A DNA stretch of 64,000 nucleotides, from NCBI GenBank assembly GCA_013822735.1, contig PNKZ01000001.1:930001-994000 (forward strand), written 5' to 3'. This document shows positions 34,965 through 43,221 of this stretch, piece after piece. The notes beneath the pieces are model-generated. The model had not been told where the DNA came from. It saw only the letters and a program-made list of their open reading frames with translations, and did no database searches. This DNA is from Pirellula sp. (lineage in GTDB: Bacteria; Planctomycetota; Planctomycetia; Pirellulales; PNKZ01). Position numbers and translations under genes: made by a program. Position 1 is the first letter of the stretch. Each line of letters opens with the position of its first letter.

Positions 34965-35933
34965 TCAGACCGCGGCGGGGCCGAACTTTTCGCCAACTTT
35001 TACCTGATAGCCGCGCAGAAATTCGCCGGGGGCCATCACGCGCTTACCGGCCGGCTGCACTTCGCGAATCAGCAGCAGGCCGTCGCCGGTCGATATGACC
35101 AAGTCGTCCCCCGACGCATTCACGATGGTACCCGGCAGCGCGGCGGCGCCCCCTGCAACGGCTTCGGCCCTGCACAAGATCAGTCGGAGCGGCTCGCCCG
35201 CGGCACGTAGCCAGCAAGTCGACGTGCGCGGCCAGGCGTAGAGCGCTCGAATCTGATTTTTGATCTGCTGTGCCGAGCGGTTCCAGTCGACTTCGCCGTC
35301 GGTCTTGCGAAGTCGGCGGGCCGGCGTCGCCAGGCTACCGTCTTGTGGAAGCGGTTCGACTTTGCCTGCGGAGAGGCGATCGACGACGTCCATCACCAGC
35401 GGCGCACCGAGTTCGGACAGTCGGTGCTCGAGCTCGACGGCGTTCTCGTCCGGATCGATCGGGGTCGCCGCTTTGGCCAAGCAAGCGCCCGCGTCGACCT
35501 TCGACGACATCTGAATGACGGTGACGCCGGTTTCCAGGTCGCCGTTGTAAATGGCCCAATTGATCGGGGCGGCGCCGCGATACTTGGGGAGCAGCGAGCC
35601 GTGCAGGTTCACGCCGCCGAGCGGGGCCACATCGAGCGAGGCGTTCGAAAGGATCTGCCCGTAATCGGCGACGAGCAGTAAGTCCGGCGCGAATTCGCGC
35701 AGTGCGGCCCGGGCTTCGTCGGTGTTGATGCTCTCGGGGTCGAGGATCGGCAGGCCGCGCTCCGAAGCAACTTGCCGCATCGGGCTTGGCGGGGCCGGCC
35801 GATTGCCGCGCCCTTCGCGCGCCGGCTGCGTGACCAACGCCGCCACGGCGTGCGACGACGCCAAAGCCGCGCGGAGCATCGGCACGGCAAAGGGCCCGGT
35901 GCCCATGACGACGAGTCGCAAACGCTCAGTCAC
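34965..35933 (-). CDS. fmt: Methionyl-tRNA formyltransferase
   Basis: Formylates initiator Met-tRNA with 10-formyl-tetrahydrofolate. The N-terminal hydrolase-like domain has MGTGPFAVPMLRA and the catalytic loop HGSLLPKYRGAAPINWAI; VTVIQMSSKVDAG follows. The C-terminal tRNA-binding domain begins near residue 205. Length 322 is typical. It lies 32 bases downstream of def, its usual partner, which removes the formyl group after translation. Confidence 0.96.
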   Translation of the reverse strand: MTERLRLVVMGTGPFAVPMLRAALASSHAVAALVTQPAREGRGNRPAPPSPMRQVASERGLPILDPESINTDEARAALREFAPDLLLVADYGQILSNASLDVAPLGGVNLHGSLLPKYRGAAPINWAIYNGDLETGVTVIQMSSKVDAGACLAKAATPIDPDENAVELEHRLSELGAPLVMDVVDRLSAGKVEPLPQDGSLATPARRLRKTDGEVDWNRSAQQIKNQIRALYAWPRTSTCWLRAAGEPLRLILCRAEAVAGGAAALPGTIVNASGDDLVISTGDGLLLIREVQPAGKRVMAPGEFLRGYQVKVGEKFGPAAV

Positions 35934-35965: not shown

Positions 35966-36547
35966 TTACGTTCGCAACTTCTCGAGTTGCGCCAAATGCT
36001 CAAAAATCTTCGCGTCCGCCGGAATCTCTCCGGTTTCGCGGCGGTGTTGAAACTCCTCGCGGAAGTTCTCAAGTTCGTCGCGCACGTCCATCAGCGTCGT
36101 TTGGCTGATGCGGTCAATAAACATCACCCCGTCGAGGTGGTCGTTTTCATGTTGGATGACGCGGGCCAAGAGTCCGTCGGCGTCAAACTCCACGGCTTGC
36201 CCGGCCATGTTGTACGCGGAAACGTGGATGGTCGCCGGACGTCGGACCGGGGCGTAAAGCTTCGGCAGGCTGAGGCACCCCTCTTCTTTCTCTTCCGAAC
36301 CTTTCGGTTTGCTCAGCACCGGATTGATAAACGCGTATTCGAGATCCTTCTCCTTCGGATCGCCCGATGCGTTCACGACAAACAGTCGGTACGGCAGATC
36401 GACTTGCGGCGCAGCCAAGCCGATTCCGTCGTGCTGATACATCAGTTCGAACATCTCGCCGACCATCTTCCGGAGTTCGGCATCGACGCGCGCCAGCGGC
36501 TTGGCAGGCCGCAAAAGTGTGGGGTGAGGATAATGCAAAACGCGCAC
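35966..36547 (-). CDS. def: Peptide deformylase
   Basis: Removes the N-formyl group from nascent proteins using a divalent metal. All three motifs are present: GIGLAAPQV, EGCLSLP (Cys ligand) and HENDHLDG (His ligands and catalytic Glu; Asn replaces the usual residue at the third position of HExxH). Length is 193 residues. First gene of a minus-strand run def, fmt, small membrane protein, miaB, glnE. Confidence 0.96.
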   Translation of the reverse strand: MRVLHYPHPTLLRPAKPLARVDAELRKMVGEMFELMYQHDGIGLAAPQVDLPYRLFVVNASGDPKEKDLEYAFINPVLSKPKGSEEKEEGCLSLPKLYAPVRRPATIHVSAYNMAGQAVEFDADGLLARVIQHENDHLDGVMFIDRISQTTLMDVRDELENFREEFQHRRETGEIPADAKIFEHLAQLEKLRT

Positions 36548-36773: not shown

Positions 36774-37796
36774 TTGTCGCGCCAGCCCGCTACCGCCGTC
36801 GTTGCGCAGGTCGGCCCCCGCGGTGCCGAGCCGCGCGATCGGCGTTGGGTGGTGACGCTCGAAACCTGGGGGCTTTCAATCCTCTTTCACGCCTCGCTCA
36901 TCGTCGTACTGGGGCTCACGTGGAAAGCCGCCGCTAAGCCGGCCGGCGATGCGCCCGAGGTGCTGCGAACGGTCGAACTGGTCGCCAAACGCGAATCGGC
37001 GGCGGGCCCCGTGTATCTCGACCAAGCGGCGGCGGAAGCCGAAGCCGCGGCGGCCGCCGCAACCAGCGACACGGTCGACATGAAAGCGCTCTTCGGCGGA
37101 GCCGGCGGCGCGCCGCAGTCGCCCATTGATATTAGCGGCGCGCTGCCCAAGGCCTCCGACGTCGCAGGACTCGGCCTCGGCTCCGGCCCGCCGCTTCTGG
37201 GCGGGGGCGGCCTGCTCGATGGCCCGGCCGGCAAAACCGGCGTCTCCGGCGGCAAGGGACGCACGAAGGTCTACGGCCTCAAGGGGGAAGGCTACAAGTT
37301 CGTGTACGTCTTCGATCGCTCCGGCAGCATGGGAGGCTCCGGCAATCGAGCCCTCAACTCCGCCAAGCGCGAGCTGCTGCAAAGCATCGACGACCTTGGC
37401 GAGACGCACCAGTTTCAAATCATCTTCTACAACGAACTGCCGACCATCATGCGGCTCGACGGCCAGTCGCAGCTGATGTTCGGCACCGAAGCTAACAAGA
37501 AGGAAGCGCGGGCCTTCGTGAACTCGATCGCCGCCGACGGCGCCACGCAGCACGAACCGGCGATCAAGCTCGCCATGCAACTCTCGCCCGACGTCGTGTT
37601 CTTCCTTACCGACGCTGATCAGCCGGAACTTTCGCGGGCACAGCTCGATCGCATTGCTCGGATGAACGACGGTCGAGCCGTGATCAACACGATCGAGTTC
37701 GGCTTGGGGCCGAAGATTCGCAAAGCCAACTTTCTTGATCGCTTGGCGGAAGAAAACGGCGGACAGAGCGTCTACGTGGATATCAGCCGCCAATGA
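36774..37796 (+). CDS. Membrane-anchored von Willebrand A (vWA) domain protein
   Basis: A 340-residue protein with one transmembrane helix (about residues 33-49, LSILFHASLIVVLGLTW) and a periplasmic vWA domain. The MIDAS motif D181-x-S183-x-S185 (FDRSGSMGGSG) is intact, with TDAD further on. Between them lie a Glu/Ala-rich and a Gly-rich linker (about 82-165). TTG 36774 was chosen because GGGAG precedes it. First gene of a six-gene cluster with TPR, ExbB and ExbD proteins, overlapping the next gene by four bases. vWA with TolQ/TolR-like proteins suggests a force- or metal-linked envelope complex. Confidence 0.82.
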   Translation: MSRQPATAVVAQVGPRGAEPRDRRWVVTLETWGLSILFHASLIVVLGLTWKAAAKPAGDAPEVLRTVELVAKRESAAGPVYLDQAAAEAEAAAAAATSDTVDMKALFGGAGGAPQSPIDISGALPKASDVAGLGLGSGPPLLGGGGLLDGPAGKTGVSGGKGRTKVYGLKGEGYKFVYVFDRSGSMGGSGNRALNSAKRELLQSIDDLGETHQFQIIFYNELPTIMRLDGQSQLMFGTEANKKEARAFVNSIAADGATQHEPAIKLAMQLSPDVVFFLTDADQPELSRAQLDRIARMNDGRAVINTIEFGLGPKIRKANFLDRLAEENGGQSVYVDISRQ

Positions 37797-38860
37797 TTCT
37801 TCCTCGCGCTCTCCTCACGTTTGGCTCGACTGGGTGTTGCACGGTTGCGGCCGTTTGGTTCGCGGCGACCGTCGCTTCGGCCCAAGCTCCGGCAGCCGCC
37901 GCGCCTGCGGTCGATACCGTGGTGCTCGCGCCGCGCGCGGATGCCTCGGGACGAATCGTCGTCTCGGGGCGCATCCTCGACTACACCGGCGCTGCGCTGG
38001 TGCTCGAAGCTTCCACGGGGGGCAAACAAACGATTCCCGGCGGACAGGTCGTGGAAGTGCGGAGCACGTGGACGCCGGAACAAACGGCCGGCGACGAACT
38101 TTGGCGGCGGCGCGACTACGCGGCGGCCCAGGCCAAGTACGCGGCCGCGTATGCCGCCGAGCCGCGCCGTTGGGCGAAGCGTTTCGTGCAAAGCAAACTT
38201 ATCGCTTGCTTGCGCGAACAAGATCGTTGGGAACCGGCGGCGGAAGAGTTCTTGCGACTGGTGCGTGACGATCCGGCGACGCCGTATTTCGACGTGATTC
38301 CGTTGCCTTGGACGACGGCGGCGCCCAGCCCGACCCTGGAGGTGAAGGCCCGAGCTTGGTCGGCGGATGCCTCATCGAACGTCGCGCCGCTCTTAGGCGC
38401 AAGCTTTCTCATGGCCACGTCCGAGCGGACGGCCGCCATGAAGCGAATGCGTGAGCTCGCGCTCGACGGGGATAAGCGGATTGCGCTCTTGGCCGAAGCG
38501 CAGCTGTGGCGCTCGGCGGCCGTGACGGCGGACAACGGTGCCGTCGAAAGCTGGGAACGGCTGCTCGATAAACTCCCGGAGGCGCTCCGAGCCGGACCGG
38601 CGCTCGTCGTCGGGCGAGCGTGGGCGCAGCGTAATGAGCCGGAGCGTGCGGCGCTCCTGCTGCTACGCGTGCCGATCTTGTATGACGACCAACATCGCTT
38701 GGCCGCCGAAGCGCTGTGGAGCGGCGGCCAGATGTTGGAGAAGTTGTCGCAGCCGGCGGAAGCCGCGACGCTCTACCGCGAACTCTTGCGAGATTTCCCT
38801 AAAGCGCTCGTCGCCGGGCCGGCGGCCGATCGCGCGAAGGAACTCTCGGCAAAGCCCTAA
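37793..38860 (+). CDS. Exported TPR-like protein of the vWA/Exb cluster
   Basis: A 355-residue protein with a signal peptide (residues 1-32, VAAVWFAATVASAQAP). A short beta-rich N-terminal part (VVSGRILDYTGAALVLEAS) is followed by helical repeats rich in Ala, with TPR-like patterns such as YAAAQAKYAAAYAAEPRRWA. It overlaps the vWA gene by four bases (ATGA) and precedes ExbB by 25 bases, so it is translated with the cluster. Probably a periplasmic scaffold for it; function not known. Confidence 0.75.
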   Translation: MILPRALLTFGSTGCCTVAAVWFAATVASAQAPAAAAPAVDTVVLAPRADASGRIVVSGRILDYTGAALVLEASTGGKQTIPGGQVVEVRSTWTPEQTAGDELWRRRDYAAAQAKYAAAYAAEPRRWAKRFVQSKLIACLREQDRWEPAAEEFLRLVRDDPATPYFDVIPLPWTTAAPSPTLEVKARAWSADASSNVAPLLGASFLMATSERTAAMKRMRELALDGDKRIALLAEAQLWRSAAVTADNGAVESWERLLDKLPEALRAGPALVVGRAWAQRNEPERAALLLLRVPILYDDQHRLAAEALWSGGQMLEKLSQPAEAATLYRELLRDFPKALVAGPAADRAKELSAKP

Positions 38861-38885
38861 CTCTCACGAAGAAACGAGTTGTCGG

Positions 38886-39677
38886 ATGGATCGACTGTCG
38901 AGACGGACGTTCGGATGCGTCGCTGCAATCGCCGTAGTATTCGCGGCTGCGCCGGCTTGGGCTCAGTCGAAGAGCGCAGCCGCCGCCGAAGCAGCCCCGG
39001 CTAATGGATTTATCGACCTCATCAAGGCCGGCGGTTGGGTCGGGCACACCATCATCGTGCTCTCGGTCGTCGCCGTGTCGATTTCCATCGAGCACTTGCT
39101 GACCATTCGCCGCAGCACGCTCATTCCGCCGGGGCTCCCGGAAAAGGTGCGCGACTTGTTGCGGGCCGGGCAAGTCGCGCAGGCCGACCAACAGTGCAAG
39201 CTGCAGCCCAGTGCGCTGGGGCACGTCTTGCAAGCCGGCATCGGCGAACTCGACGGCGGTTGGCCGGCAGTTGAGAAAGCGATGGAAGACGCCATGGCCG
39301 AGCAAGCGGCCCGCCTGCATCGCAAGGCGGAGTACATCTCCGTGATCGGCAACATCGCACCCATGCTCGGGCTGCTGGGCACGGTCATGGGAATGATCGA
39401 GGCCTTCAGCATGGTCGCGGCATCGCAAGGTACGGCCCGAGCCGCCGATCTTGCCGAAGGGATTTATTTGGCGCTGGTCACGACGGTCGAAGGGCTCGTC
39501 GTCGCGATTCCGGCCTTGGCGGTGTTTGCCATCTTCCGCAATCGCATCGACGGGCTGGTCGCGGAAGTCGCTTACTGTGCGCACCACGTATTTGCTCCGT
39601 TGCGTCGCGCCGCCGCCGCGCCGGTAACGCGCCGCCCTGCCCCACCGGCTCCGCCGCCGGTTGCGGGTCCCGCGTAA
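38886..39677 (+). CDS. MotA/TolQ/ExbB-family proton-channel protein
   Basis: A 263-residue protein. The N-terminus MDRLSRRTFGCVAAIAVVF resembles a signal sequence and precedes the ExbB core. Three transmembrane helices are visible: WVGHTIIVLSVVAVSISIEHL, NIAPMLGLLGTVMGMIEAF and TTVEGLVVAIPALAVFAIF. The last two have the conserved small residues of the TolQ/ExbB channel. With ExbD it uses proton motive force. It is followed by two ExbD genes. ATG 38886 was chosen over longer readings. Confidence 0.9.
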   Translation: MDRLSRRTFGCVAAIAVVFAAAPAWAQSKSAAAAEAAPANGFIDLIKAGGWVGHTIIVLSVVAVSISIEHLLTIRRSTLIPPGLPEKVRDLLRAGQVAQADQQCKLQPSALGHVLQAGIGELDGGWPAVEKAMEDAMAEQAARLHRKAEYISVIGNIAPMLGLLGTVMGMIEAFSMVAASQGTARAADLAEGIYLALVTTVEGLVVAIPALAVFAIFRNRIDGLVAEVAYCAHHVFAPLRRAAAAPVTRRPAPPAPPPVAGPA

Positions 39678-39764
39678 CGGCGGGCGATTGCGCGATCCCG
39701 CTCGTGGACGAGCGGGCTAAGCACGGTAGACGAGTGAGTAAATTGGCCCGCTGCCCGCAGTTTG

Positions 39765-39799
39765 TTCAGTATTCAGCATTCGACATTCAGCATTTCCGC
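39765..39799 (+). repeat. 7-base tandem array before the first ExbD gene
   Basis: Four in-phase heptamers related to TTCAGCA at 39765-39792, then a degenerate fifth to 39799. ATG 39802 follows after two bases. No Shine-Dalgarno sequence is visible. Confidence 0.85.
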
Positions 39800-39801
39800 C
39801 G

Positions 39802-40218
39802 ATGCGCCTCCCCAAGTACCAAGATCGCGGCAGTCTGGAGTTCAACATGACTCCGATGATCGACGTTACGTTTCAGCTCATCATCTTCTTTTTGGTGTCG
39901 AGCCATTTGGCGCAGCAGGAGATTCAGGTCGACGTCGATCTACCAACCGCTTCGAGCGGCGACGAAATGAAAGATGAGCCCGGCCGACGCATGACCGTGA
40001 ATCTCTTGGCCGACGGGCGCTTGCTCTTGGCGGGCGAAGCGATCGACGCCGAAGAACTCGGTCGCCGGTTGGGGCTGGAGCGGCGCACGAATCCGCAATT
40101 CGAGTTGCGCATCCGGAGCGATCGACAGGTCGAATACGGCCGCGTGAAACCGCTTTTGCGGCAGTGTCTGCTGCACGATGTCTGGAAAGTAACGTTCGCC
40201 GTCGTGAAACCTTCCTGA
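39802..40218 (+). CDS. ExbD/TolR-family protein, first copy
   Basis: A 138-residue ExbD/TolR protein. The single N-terminal transmembrane helix carries the proton-linked Asp in MTPMIDVTFQLIIFFLV (about residues 16-32), and a periplasmic domain follows with LRIRSDRQVEYGRV near residue 105. The ATG follows a 7-base repeat array. A second ExbD starts 10 bases downstream, so the motor probably has two different ExbD subunits. Confidence 0.92.
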   Translation: MRLPKYQDRGSLEFNMTPMIDVTFQLIIFFLVSSHLAQQEIQVDVDLPTASSGDEMKDEPGRRMTVNLLADGRLLLAGEAIDAEELGRRLGLERRTNPQFELRIRSDRQVEYGRVKPLLRQCLLHDVWKVTFAVVKPS

Positions 40219-40228
40219 CGAACCAAGC

Positions 40229-40687
40229 ATGCGATCCAGCGGTTACAACTCGAAGCGGGCCCGATTCGACGTCCAGATGACGCCGATGATCGACGTCGTG
40301 TTTCAGTTGCTGATTTTCTTCGTATGCACGGTGAGCTTCCAGAAGCAGGAGCAATCGTTGCAGGCGACGCCCAAGGCAAGTGCGGCGAAAGGCTCCGGCG
40401 GCGCGCAGCAGCAGATCCCGCCCGAGTTGGAAGACTTGCGACAGGTGGACGTGTTGCTCCGTCGCACGGCGGGGCGTACGGAGTGGCTCGTCAATCAAGA
40501 CGTTTGCACCACGGCCGCCGCCGTGCGAGCCCGCTTGACGAGCTTGGCGCGGATCGCCGAATACAAACGGATCGTACCTGTCGTGCTCGACGCAGCCGAC
40601 GACGTGCCGTTGGCCGATGCGATCGACATGTACGACCTTTGTCTCAGCCTGGGCTTTGCGAAGGTGCAGTTCGTGACGCCGGAATGA
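40229..40687 (+). CDS. ExbD/TolR-family protein, second copy
   Basis: A 152-residue ExbD paralogue. The transmembrane helix holds the conserved Asp in MTPMIDVVFQLLIFFV. The periplasmic part begins with a Lys/Ala/Gly-rich linker (KASAAKGSGGAQQQ) not present in the first copy, then QVDVLLRRTAGRTEWLVNQD. Divergence from copy one suggests a heteromeric assembly or an alternative partner specificity. The next gene's start is separated from its stop by a repeat array. Confidence 0.92.
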   Translation: MRSSGYNSKRARFDVQMTPMIDVVFQLLIFFVCTVSFQKQEQSLQATPKASAAKGSGGAQQQIPPELEDLRQVDVLLRRTAGRTEWLVNQDVCTTAAAVRARLTSLARIAEYKRIVPVVLDAADDVPLADAIDMYDLCLSLGFAKVQFVTPE

Positions 40688-40693
40688 CGGCGC

Positions 40694-40735
40694 GATGGGA
40701 GATGGGAGATTTGAGACGGGAGCGGCGAAATCTGA
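40694..40735 (+). repeat. Six 7-base units between ExbD2 and the TPR gene
   Basis: Six in-phase heptamers, the first two exactly GATGGGA and the others degenerate, occupy 40694-40735, five bases before ATG 40741. Confidence 0.82.
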
Positions 40736-40740
40736 CGCGG

Positions 40741-43221
40741 ATGTCCTTCGCATTTGCGATGGTGTCGTGCGCCGTTGCGCTTGGCCTCGCTAGTCCGGCT
40801 GTTGGGCGCGCGGAGCTCTCGGAAGCGTCTGAGGTCCGATATCTGGCAGGTCTGCGCGAGCGGCGGTTGTTTTCTTTGGCCGAGAGTTACTGCCGCCGGC
40901 GTTTGGCGGATGCCTATGTGCTGGATCGCCGGCGGACGGAACTCACGGTCGAACTAAGCCGTACGTCGCTCGAGGCGGCCCTCTTTGCGAAACCGCCCGA
41001 GCGCGATGCGCGGTTTACGCAAGCTTCGCAAGTGTTGGACGAGGAGCTTCGTCGCAAGCCGAACGGCGCGTGGCGGGCCCCATTGCTCGTGCAGCGCGGG
41101 CTGGTCGACTTGATCTGGGGAGAACGGCTGCGCGAAGAGGCGCAAACGCTGCATTCCGGTGATGCGGCATTAGAGCAGGCCCGCGAGCGTTTGCGCGCCG
41201 CGGCCGCGCAACTCAAGCAGGCGGCCGAACTTGTGAAGGAAGGGGCGATCGAAGCGGGCCGCAAGCGCGGCGGCGCGGATGCGCCCGATGTCCCGACGCC
41301 GGCCCACTGGTCGTCGCTTCGGCGGCAACTCGAATACCATCAGGCGCGCACCCAACGCAACCTCGGCGAGAGTTACGCGGCGCGCAGCCCGGATCGTTTA
41401 TCGGCGCTGGAGCAAGCGGTCGAGATGCTTGAGGCGCTATCGCGCAGCGAAGCGATCGACGCGGTGACGTGGGCCGCCCGGCTCGACGAAGCGAATTGTC
41501 GCCGGCTGCTTGGCGATTTGAACGCTTCGGAACGCGTGCTCGATCTCATCGACGGACAATTGCCGCCGAGCGACGTCGCCGATCGGGCGCGAGCGCAGCG
41601 GATTCGCAATCGCATCGCCGCGGCACGGCTCGACGAAGCGCAGAAGTTCTTCCGCGAGGACGATGCGGAGCCGGCGTTTCACGTTGATCCCGAAGTGCGG
41701 CTGGCCGAACTGGAGTGGCTGATCGCTTCCGCGGCGGCCGCAGAAAAGGAAGGAAATGCGAAGAACGTCGCCGACTATCGCGGTCGGGCCACGGCGATGG
41801 CCTCGCTGATCGAAGAGCGGCACTCGCCGTACTTCGCCCGTCGCGCGGAGACATTATTGGCGTCATCGGTCGCAGGCACAACAACGGGCGGACACGACGA
41901 CGGGGCGTTGGCCAAAGCGGCAGAGAGTTTCTATCGCCAGGGGAATATCGAAAAGGCGCTCGAGCTTTACGATCAGATGTTCGCACAGGCTCAACAGAAG
42001 GGGAACTCCGCGGGCGCGTTCGCCGCAGCCTTCACGGCGGCGGCCTTGGAGCAGCAACGCGGTAAGTTTGCGGCGGCGTCCGAGCGCTTCGAGCGGCTGG
42101 CCGCCACGCTGCCGCAACATGCCCGGGCCGGCGAAGCGTCGCTCTTGGCGGCGTTTAATTGGGGGCAGAGCTTGGCGGCGGTGGCGGATGCCGCGGCCGG
42201 GCAAGTCGGCTTGGAGCGGTACGTCGGGTTGTTGGAGTCGCATCTGCAGCGACACCCCATGGACAAGACCGCATCCCAGGCGCGGCTCTGGCTCGCGAAG
42301 GTCTACGTTCAGCGTAAGCAATACGACGGGGCAATCGCGCAACTGCGGCAAGTGCCCGCCGGCGACGCGCTCGCGGCTCAGGCGGTCGAGGCGCTGCAGC
42401 AAGCGGCGAACTTGGCAATGCGTGCGCCGCGATCGGCGAAGGAACGTGCCGCGGTCGCCGATTCTTATGCGGAGGCGTTGCGAACGTTCGGCGCTGCCGG
42501 GGCCGCCGCCAAGCTGCAACTTACGTACTGCGAGGATCGCTACGCTACTTGTGCGGAACAACTACGGACTCTGGTGCAAAAGCCCGGATTTCCTGAAGAG
42601 GAGCGCGACGGACTCGTTGCCTGGCTCGCGCTTGCGGAAGCCGGCGCAGGTCGATTAGACGCGGCAACCGCCGAAGTTGCGAAGTTGAAGTCGCCTTTAG
42701 ATAGTTCGGCAATGCCGATCGTCGCGCGGCTCGACAACTTGGCCGCGCGGGCACCGGTCGACCAGCGCGACGCATTCGCCTCGCTGGTGACTCGATTCGT
42801 CGAGCTGCTCCGCTCGCGAAGGGAGACGATGCCCGAAGTTTGGATCGCGCAGGTGGCGCCGGCCGAGGCTCGGGCCCTGTCGCATTTGGGGCGCGTCGCC
42901 GAGGCGCGGCGCGTGTGGAGCGACCTGGCCGCGGCACGTCCGCGCGATGCGGCGGTCCAAGAGGGGTACGCGGATTTCTTGTTGGCGCAGGCCGATCGCG
43001 AATCGTTGCAACTTGCCGCGGCGCGCTGGCGCGAAGTGGAGCGCGCCGTGCCGGAAGCCACGCCGGCCTGGTACCGCGCGCGGTTGGGTACGGCACTGGC
43101 GTACCAAAAGCTCGGGGATAGTGCGAGGGCGCGACAAATTGCCGACCTCACCGCGGCTTTGCACCCCGACCTTGGCGGACCGTCGCTCAAGCCGCGATTC
43201 GATGCGCTGCGAAGTAAATGA
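40741..43221 (+). CDS. Large exported TPR protein of the vWA/Exb cluster
   Basis: An 826-residue protein. The signal peptide is MSFAFAMVSCAVALGLASP...GRAELSE. Most of the remainder is Ala-rich helical solenoid with TPR/Sel1-like units, such as FYRQGNIEKALELYDQMFAQ and HAAFTAAALEQQRGKFAAAS-type segments. ATG 40741 follows a 7-base array; the reading frame extends further up to ATG 40684, which overlaps the ExbD2 stop, but that would place a basic, non-signal segment in front. Last gene of the cluster; it converges with ptsI with 11 bases between. Confidence 0.82.
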   Translation: MSFAFAMVSCAVALGLASPAVGRAELSEASEVRYLAGLRERRLFSLAESYCRRRLADAYVLDRRRTELTVELSRTSLEAALFAKPPERDARFTQASQVLDEELRRKPNGAWRAPLLVQRGLVDLIWGERLREEAQTLHSGDAALEQARERLRAAAAQLKQAAELVKEGAIEAGRKRGGADAPDVPTPAHWSSLRRQLEYHQARTQRNLGESYAARSPDRLSALEQAVEMLEALSRSEAIDAVTWAARLDEANCRRLLGDLNASERVLDLIDGQLPPSDVADRARAQRIRNRIAAARLDEAQKFFREDDAEPAFHVDPEVRLAELEWLIASAAAAEKEGNAKNVADYRGRATAMASLIEERHSPYFARRAETLLASSVAGTTTGGHDDGALAKAAESFYRQGNIEKALELYDQMFAQAQQKGNSAGAFAAAFTAAALEQQRGKFAAASERFERLAATLPQHARAGEASLLAAFNWGQSLAAVADAAAGQVGLERYVGLLESHLQRHPMDKTASQARLWLAKVYVQRKQYDGAIAQLRQVPAGDALAAQAVEALQQAANLAMRAPRSAKERAAVADSYAEALRTFGAAGAAAKLQLTYCEDRYATCAEQLRTLVQKPGFPEEERDGLVAWLALAEAGAGRLDAATAEVAKLKSPLDSSAMPIVARLDNLAARAPVDQRDAFASLVTRFVELLRSRRETMPEVWIAQVAPAEARALSHLGRVAEARRVWSDLAAARPRDAAVQEGYADFLLAQADRESLQLAAARWREVERAVPEATPAWYRARLGTALAYQKLGDSARARQIADLTAALHPDLGGPSLKPRFDALRSK

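Follow-up and report, generated by a model that had tools for sequence, protein, structure and literature searches.

A probable PMF-coupled vWA transducer encoded with an ExbB/ExbD motor and two TPR proteins in a Pirellula genome

For ExbBD/TolQR-type motors, only a few outputs have been worked out. A run of six genes in a Pirellula sp. genome encodes a vWA protein, a TPR protein (TPR1), ExbB, two ExbDs (ExbD1 and ExbD2) and a second TPR protein (TPR2), and raises the question of what such a motor would drive. The window, by which we mean the whole stretch of 64,000 nucleotides analysed (G000:C1:930001-994000, that is contig PNKZ01000001.1 of assembly GCA_013822735.1), had been suggested in an initial annotation to hold an energised envelope machine that is neither Tol nor Ton. 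This is still the best reading, backed by a docking motif in the vWA protein, by proton-path residues in the motor and by a recurrent gene order: with a probability of roughly three in four, the cluster is a PMF-driven trans-envelope machine of a PMF-coupled vWA transducer type.

In the ORF list of the window, the six genes occupy positions 36774–43221, all on the forward strand as first annotated, and are flanked by reverse-strand genes: glnE, miaB, fmt and def on one side, PTS enzyme I and MFS on the other. Both fmt (34965–35933) and def (35966–36547) are divergent and lie upstream of the vWA gene. Of the four-base overlaps that the initial annotation placed at the start of the cluster, the one between vWA and TPR1 (37793–37796) is the sole certain case; an overlap of TPR2 with ExbD2, from position 40684, is possible and disfavoured, and ExbB and ExbD1 are 124 bp apart. 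Its statement that Tol, Ton and flagellar genes are missing holds for the locus and its named neighbours and fails for the genome, which elsewhere encodes three TonB_C proteins (PF03544), three TonB-dependent plug domains and a flagellar motor. No Rfam matches were found around the cluster. The nearest named relatives among the matches are Planctomycetaceae/Pirellulales MAGs, and Blastopirellula marina was also matched.

The vWA gene (36774–37796, forward strand) begins with TTG and encodes a putative force-transducer protein of 340 residues, in which a membrane helix, a hairpin and a linker precede the vWA domain. The helix, WGLSILFHASLIVVLGLTW, spans residues 22–53 in the AF2 model and contains S35-I-L-F-H39 (codons at 36876–36890, forward strand), a motor-docking motif of the TonB/TolA type. 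S35 and H39 align with S16/H20 of TonB and S18/H22 of TolA from E. coli K-12, and among 61 class homologs they are kept in 58 and 59 sequences, respectively, which makes them the most conserved helix positions (3.96 bits for S35 and 4.08 of 4.32 bits for H39). Compared with the SHLS-type pattern, L42 fits the leucine and the final serine is not conserved. Beyond the helix, 26–33 residues past H39, lies a conserved segment, R65-x-V-G/E-I/L, and a beta-hairpin is predicted by AF2 at residues 71–82, so that the D-box-like strand or hairpin region covers residues ~65–82. The TonB D-box peptide bound by ExbD comprises residues 43–54 (PMC10907165); it follows H20 by 23–34 residues, a comparable distance, and its hydrophobic pattern is matched only in part by the vWA segment. 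By this predicted architecture the vWA protein is the counterpart of TonB/TolA. Because it carries both the docking motif and the D-box-like strand, the bare adjacency of a vWA gene to ExbBD becomes a specific coupling model.

The motif is widespread, occurring at 119 of 128 unique vWA loci. Of 20 genomes searched in other families, 13 gave a best match (L285–L297) whose hydrophobic helix carries S-xxx-H; the majority of the long vWA proteins encoded in those 13 are devoid of it, and two chance matches fall outside an anchor context. A vWA paralog in the window's own genome (L065:6935-8203; G000:C9:187k) also has an S-xxx-H helix (SGVTH), with no ExbB or ExbD in the 16 kb fetched. Overall, a vWA match, ortholog or paralog, is present in 243 of 262 good class genomes.

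The vWA domain itself (residues 162–340) matches PF13519 at 2.6e-05, under the gathering score; with Pfam alone, both the vWA and the TPR domains stay under cut-off and structure prediction was required. The fold is confirmed by the AF2 model, with pLDDT mostly >90, and by Foldseek, with E=1e-11 to solved vWA domains. It is joined to the hairpin by a linker of ~80 Gly/Ala-rich, disordered residues (~83–161; pLDDT mostly <60). The initial annotation described a membrane-anchored vWA protein with an intact MIDAS, and this is borne out: D181, S183, S185, T258 and D280 make up a complete site and are invariant in a 51-sequence alignment of vWA homologs. That alignment was picked for motif-bearing sequences, so the invariance of H39 in it is partly built in and the larger set (59/61) should be used for that residue; MIDAS invariance does not depend on the choice in the same way, and D181, S183 and S185 are each found in 61 of 61 sequences of the larger set.

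The motor genes encode what the initial annotation called a proton-channel pair with two different ExbDs, and the domain matches and the tree agree with this description. The ExbB/TolQ-type proton-channel subunit (38886–39677, forward strand; 263 aa; PF01618, 1.3e-28) has an apparent N-terminal signal peptide. ExbD1 (39802–40218, forward strand; 138 aa; PF02472, 3.8e-22) and the divergent second ExbD, ExbD2 (40229–40687, forward strand; 152 aa; PF02472, about 8e-16), both carry the transmembrane aspartate equivalent to D25 of E. coli ExbD, which is present in all 138 aligned sequences. Equivalents of E. coli ExbB T148 and T181 are invariant in the 45-member ExbB clade, and the proton-path residues, threonines in ExbB and aspartate in ExbD, are thus kept. 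Two other residues were rejected as markers: E176 of E. coli ExbB is replaced by Q, K, L or R in this clade, and a glutamate one turn beyond it in the window's ExbB occurs in just 11 of 45 orthologs. The phylogenetic comparison with TolR and ExbD separates ExbD2 from ExbD1 and pairs E. coli ExbD with TolR outside both, at modest support for the deeper nodes, and the window's ExbDs are therefore not ordinary TolR.

Two exported TPR scaffolds had also been proposed, and both proteins have apparent signal peptides and weak TPR-like Pfam/NCBIfam matches. TPR1 (37793–38860, forward strand; 355 aa) consists of the signal peptide, a short N-terminal segment and TPR-like repeats with weak TPR/YbgF-like matches, and recurs immediately after the vWA gene. 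The TPR2 reading frame is open further upstream, for example to the ATG at 40684 that would create the overlap with ExbD2; the start at 40741 is favoured because it fits both the signal peptide and the length of the orthologs, mostly 823–876 aa. From this ATG the protein (40741–43221, forward strand) has 826 residues, and its AF2 model (mean pLDDT 90.6) is a solenoid of ~40 helices. Foldseek returned generic TPR solenoids with low TM-scores; the second match, a C. jejuni flagellar periplasmic scaffold, is an analogy at most and not a relation.

Whether gene order is conserved in planctomycetes, a point raised by the initial annotation, has a divided answer. Loci were chosen for vWA similarity and so as to spread over families, irrespective of their motor content, and the 90 of 128 unique vWA loci with at least 8 kb downstream were used for order counts. 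ExbB lies downstream on the same strand in 50 of these 90 loci, 46 of them with at least two ExbDs, and the full set of TPR1, motor and TPR2 is found in 29. This recurrence across the class is beyond chance. On the other side, 40 of the 90 loci have no adjacent motor, and 18 of the 90 combine the vWA gene with TPR1 and/or TPR2 and no ExbB nearby. The motif persists in 34 of the 40 vWA proteins at motor-less loci; hence it does not predict an adjacent motor, and the vWA protein need not be coupled to this one motor.

The genes are only partly dispersed. Among 25 genomes examined for an incomplete locus, 15 have a separate locus whose ExbB belongs to the window's clade, in many cases followed by ExbDs and in some by TPR2. 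Five more, near-complete genomes (G049, G104, G112, G260 and G278) have the vWA gene, mostly with TPR1/TPR2, and only a more distant ExbB. As for the position of the vWA gene, 42 of 101 sampled loci have def, fmt or both no more than 3 kb upstream of it (16/47 without and 26/54 with an adjacent motor), and because motor-less loci are so often beside def/fmt, many of them are true orthologs. The vWA-TPR unit can thus persist with no motor next to it, presumably by using one in trans. We also observed vWA, TPR1 and TPR2 together without ExbB or ExbD at L072, L074, L079 and L084 (from G112, G104, G260 and G278, respectively), with an unrelated ORF of ~1050 aa between TPR1 and TPR2 at L079.

How might such a machine work? 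From the family, ExbB would be a pentameric channel around an ExbD1/ExbD2 pair, a complex and stoichiometry that we infer. The vWA helix, in the role of TonB/TolA, would dock on ExbB through S35 and H39, and the strand just outside the membrane would be captured by the ExbD periplasmic domains in the manner of the TonB D-box. The flexible linker would span the periplasm, allowing the vWA tip to grip a putative ligand via its metal-ion site, and motor cycles would then exert a pulling force on this ligand. TPR1 and TPR2 may act as periplasmic scaffolds that position the ligand or form it.

For the physiological role, we tentatively favour general envelope tethering or maintenance, akin to Tol, over import of one nutrient; it is the likeliest single output, at odds below even, because vWA homologs are near-universal in the class and the gene is often beside def/fmt. 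An alternative keeps motor and vWA transducer alike and makes the output macromolecule import at the crateriform structures of planctomycetes. In its favour, CCCP abolishes uptake of dextran and GFP into the planctomycete periplasm, and crateriform structures join the outer and cytoplasmic membranes (PMC5394234). Against it, family f18 (probably Gemmataceae) showed only divergent anchored vWA proteins and no ExbB within 1.5 kb flanks, yet Gemmata takes up dextran. We therefore regard import as an unlikely output. Both this alternative and the gliding-type machine considered below rest on the same motor model as the favoured reading and depart from it in output alone, so the confidences overlap.

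A different possibility is that ExbB-ExbD1-ExbD2 mainly energises the genome's TonB proteins for nutrient uptake, the vWA and TPR proteins being merely co-transcribed envelope factors. The three TonB_C genes (G000:C1:68k, C7:153k and C9:146k) each have a plug-domain gene nearby, the plug domains being on C7, C9 and at C1:67k with none at the six-gene locus. None of the TonB_C or plug-domain genes is beside an ExbBD pair, and cross-talk of TonB/TolA with heterologous motors is known (PMC12204202), which would allow for such a service. Against this, the vWA protein looks like the cognate partner, given its docking motif, its D-box-like strand and the recurring order vWA-TPR1-ExbB-ExbD-ExbD, and other ExbBD clusters in the genome could serve TonB; we consider a motor mainly for TonB quite improbable.

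A machine for adhesion or gliding, resembling Myxococcus AglRQS with the vWA adhesin CglB, would also combine a MIDAS vWA, a TolQR-type motor and periplasmic TPR proteins, and gliding has been suggested for the vWA transducer family (PMC12204202). The vWA protein described here nevertheless lacks a lipoprotein signal and is held in the inner membrane by its S-xxx-H helix, and no Glt-type genes were seen at the locus, making this output very improbable. That the vWA protein is instead a chaperone or metal-site factor of the BatA/MoxR type, with S-xxx-H as a lineage relic, is the least probable reading: vWA proteins are common and the motif persists where the cognate motor is not adjacent, but the motif is generally not found in long vWA proteins of the genomes concerned, a MoxR ATPase is missing from the locus, and a neutral relic would not hold ~4 bits across the class.

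The same genome contains further ExbBD clusters. A related one at G000:C1:137-144k (L060:6949-14306) has the order TPR2'-TPR1'-ExbB'-ExbD' x3 and no obvious transducer; it was rejected as a second vWA machine, having no vWA and no S-xxx-H helix in its ORFs. Clusters of this type, TPR2'-TPR1'-ExbB' with two or three ExbDs, recur in other genomes (L145, L146 and L148). Near the ExbB-ExbD clusters no OmpA match was found, flagellar-type clusters excepted, and on the contig ~200 kb separates the six-gene locus from the closest OmpA-type domain.

At two other loci, TPR-ExbB-ExbD is followed by a candidate transducer. The one on C8 (L062:6355-11542; G000:C8:68.4-73.5k) has 631 aa with two TM helices, a Pro/Ala-rich linker and a squalene-hopene-cyclase-like domain (PF13243); its second helix has the histidine in 30 of 30 sequences and the serine in 27 of 30 (alanine in the window's genus). 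Relatives of this protein were found in 58 of 58 genomes sampled in the order, and in seven of nine genomes searched both ways the best match is within ~3 kb of ExbB. The candidate on C35 (L063:3015-10607; G000:C35:15-22.6k) has 958 aa and three TM helices, the third containing SLLFH. Its linker is very long and of low complexity, and its C-terminal domain has no match in Pfam. The protein is matched in 20 of the 58 genomes from the order. Neither the cyclase-like nor the Pfam-less type was found in the literature searched, and these two transducer-like families may be where novelty lies. We give about even odds to the view that the vWA protein belongs to a set of several modular Planctomycetia transducers, in which a common S-xxx-H helix is combined with unrelated C-terminal domains (vWA, squalene-hopene-cyclase-like or Pfam-less), each encoded with TPR and ExbB/ExbD, so that, next to Ton and the flagellum, a single genome would operate several different envelope machines powered by the PMF.

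If the PMF-coupled vWA transducer is real, it would be a near-universal planctomycete machine in which the TonB tip is swapped for a metal-dependent grip, widening the range of loads for these motors. It offers a concrete candidate for those PMF-dependent envelope processes of planctomycetes that await explanation, the CCCP-sensitive macromolecule uptake among them, and the transducer idea lends itself to direct tests through the residues that matter most: S35, H39, the MIDAS five and the ExbD aspartates.

Compared to known systems, the cluster is not a standard Tol or Ton set, in line with the initial annotation. It has in common with Ton (ExbB-ExbD-TonB) the ExbB/ExbD motor, the S-xxx-H docking helix and a predicted strand at about the D-box position; it differs in its two unlike ExbDs and vWA tip, and in having no TonB C-terminal domain and no receptor at the locus. 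With Tol-Pal (TolQRA-TolB-Pal-CpoB) it shares a TolQR-type motor, a TolA-like anchor and TPR proteins with weak YbgF/CpoB-like matches, whereas TolB, Pal and the TolA C-terminal domain are missing from the locus. The TPH-vWA family, a second vWA family (PMC12204202), also has a membrane vWA adjoining a TolQ homolog; it is without SHLS and ExbD and carries the proton-path aspartate in the vWA helix, whereas the window has ExbDs, S-xxx-H and no helix aspartate.

The closest match is to the vWA force transducers proposed from structure prediction by Williams-Jones et al., 2025 (PMC12204202, section 8, Fig. 4a/b). That class has an SHLS helix, a motor box, a disordered domain II of ~100 residues and a vWA C-terminal domain, is encoded beside TPR, a TolQ-like gene and a pair of dissimilar TolR-like genes, and has been reported from several phyla and from the PVC group, Planctomycetes among them, without a known phenotype. 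The window's cluster shares the S-xxx-H helix, a linker of ~80 residues, the vWA tip, the TolQ-like gene, two unlike TolR-like genes and TPR; it differs in placing vWA first and not last, and in its second large TPR gene, its complete and invariant MIDAS, and its split and motor-less variants. In the main text of that study, MIDAS and Pirellulales go unmentioned, as do transducers of the squalene-cyclase or any other cyclase type. The cluster thus matches the proposed class, with motor binding and PMF transduction predicted from sequence and model, and what is new here is the invariance of the MIDAS, the second TPR scaffold, the existence of variants that are split or have no motor, and a further pair of transducer-like families carrying the motif beside other ExbBD motors.
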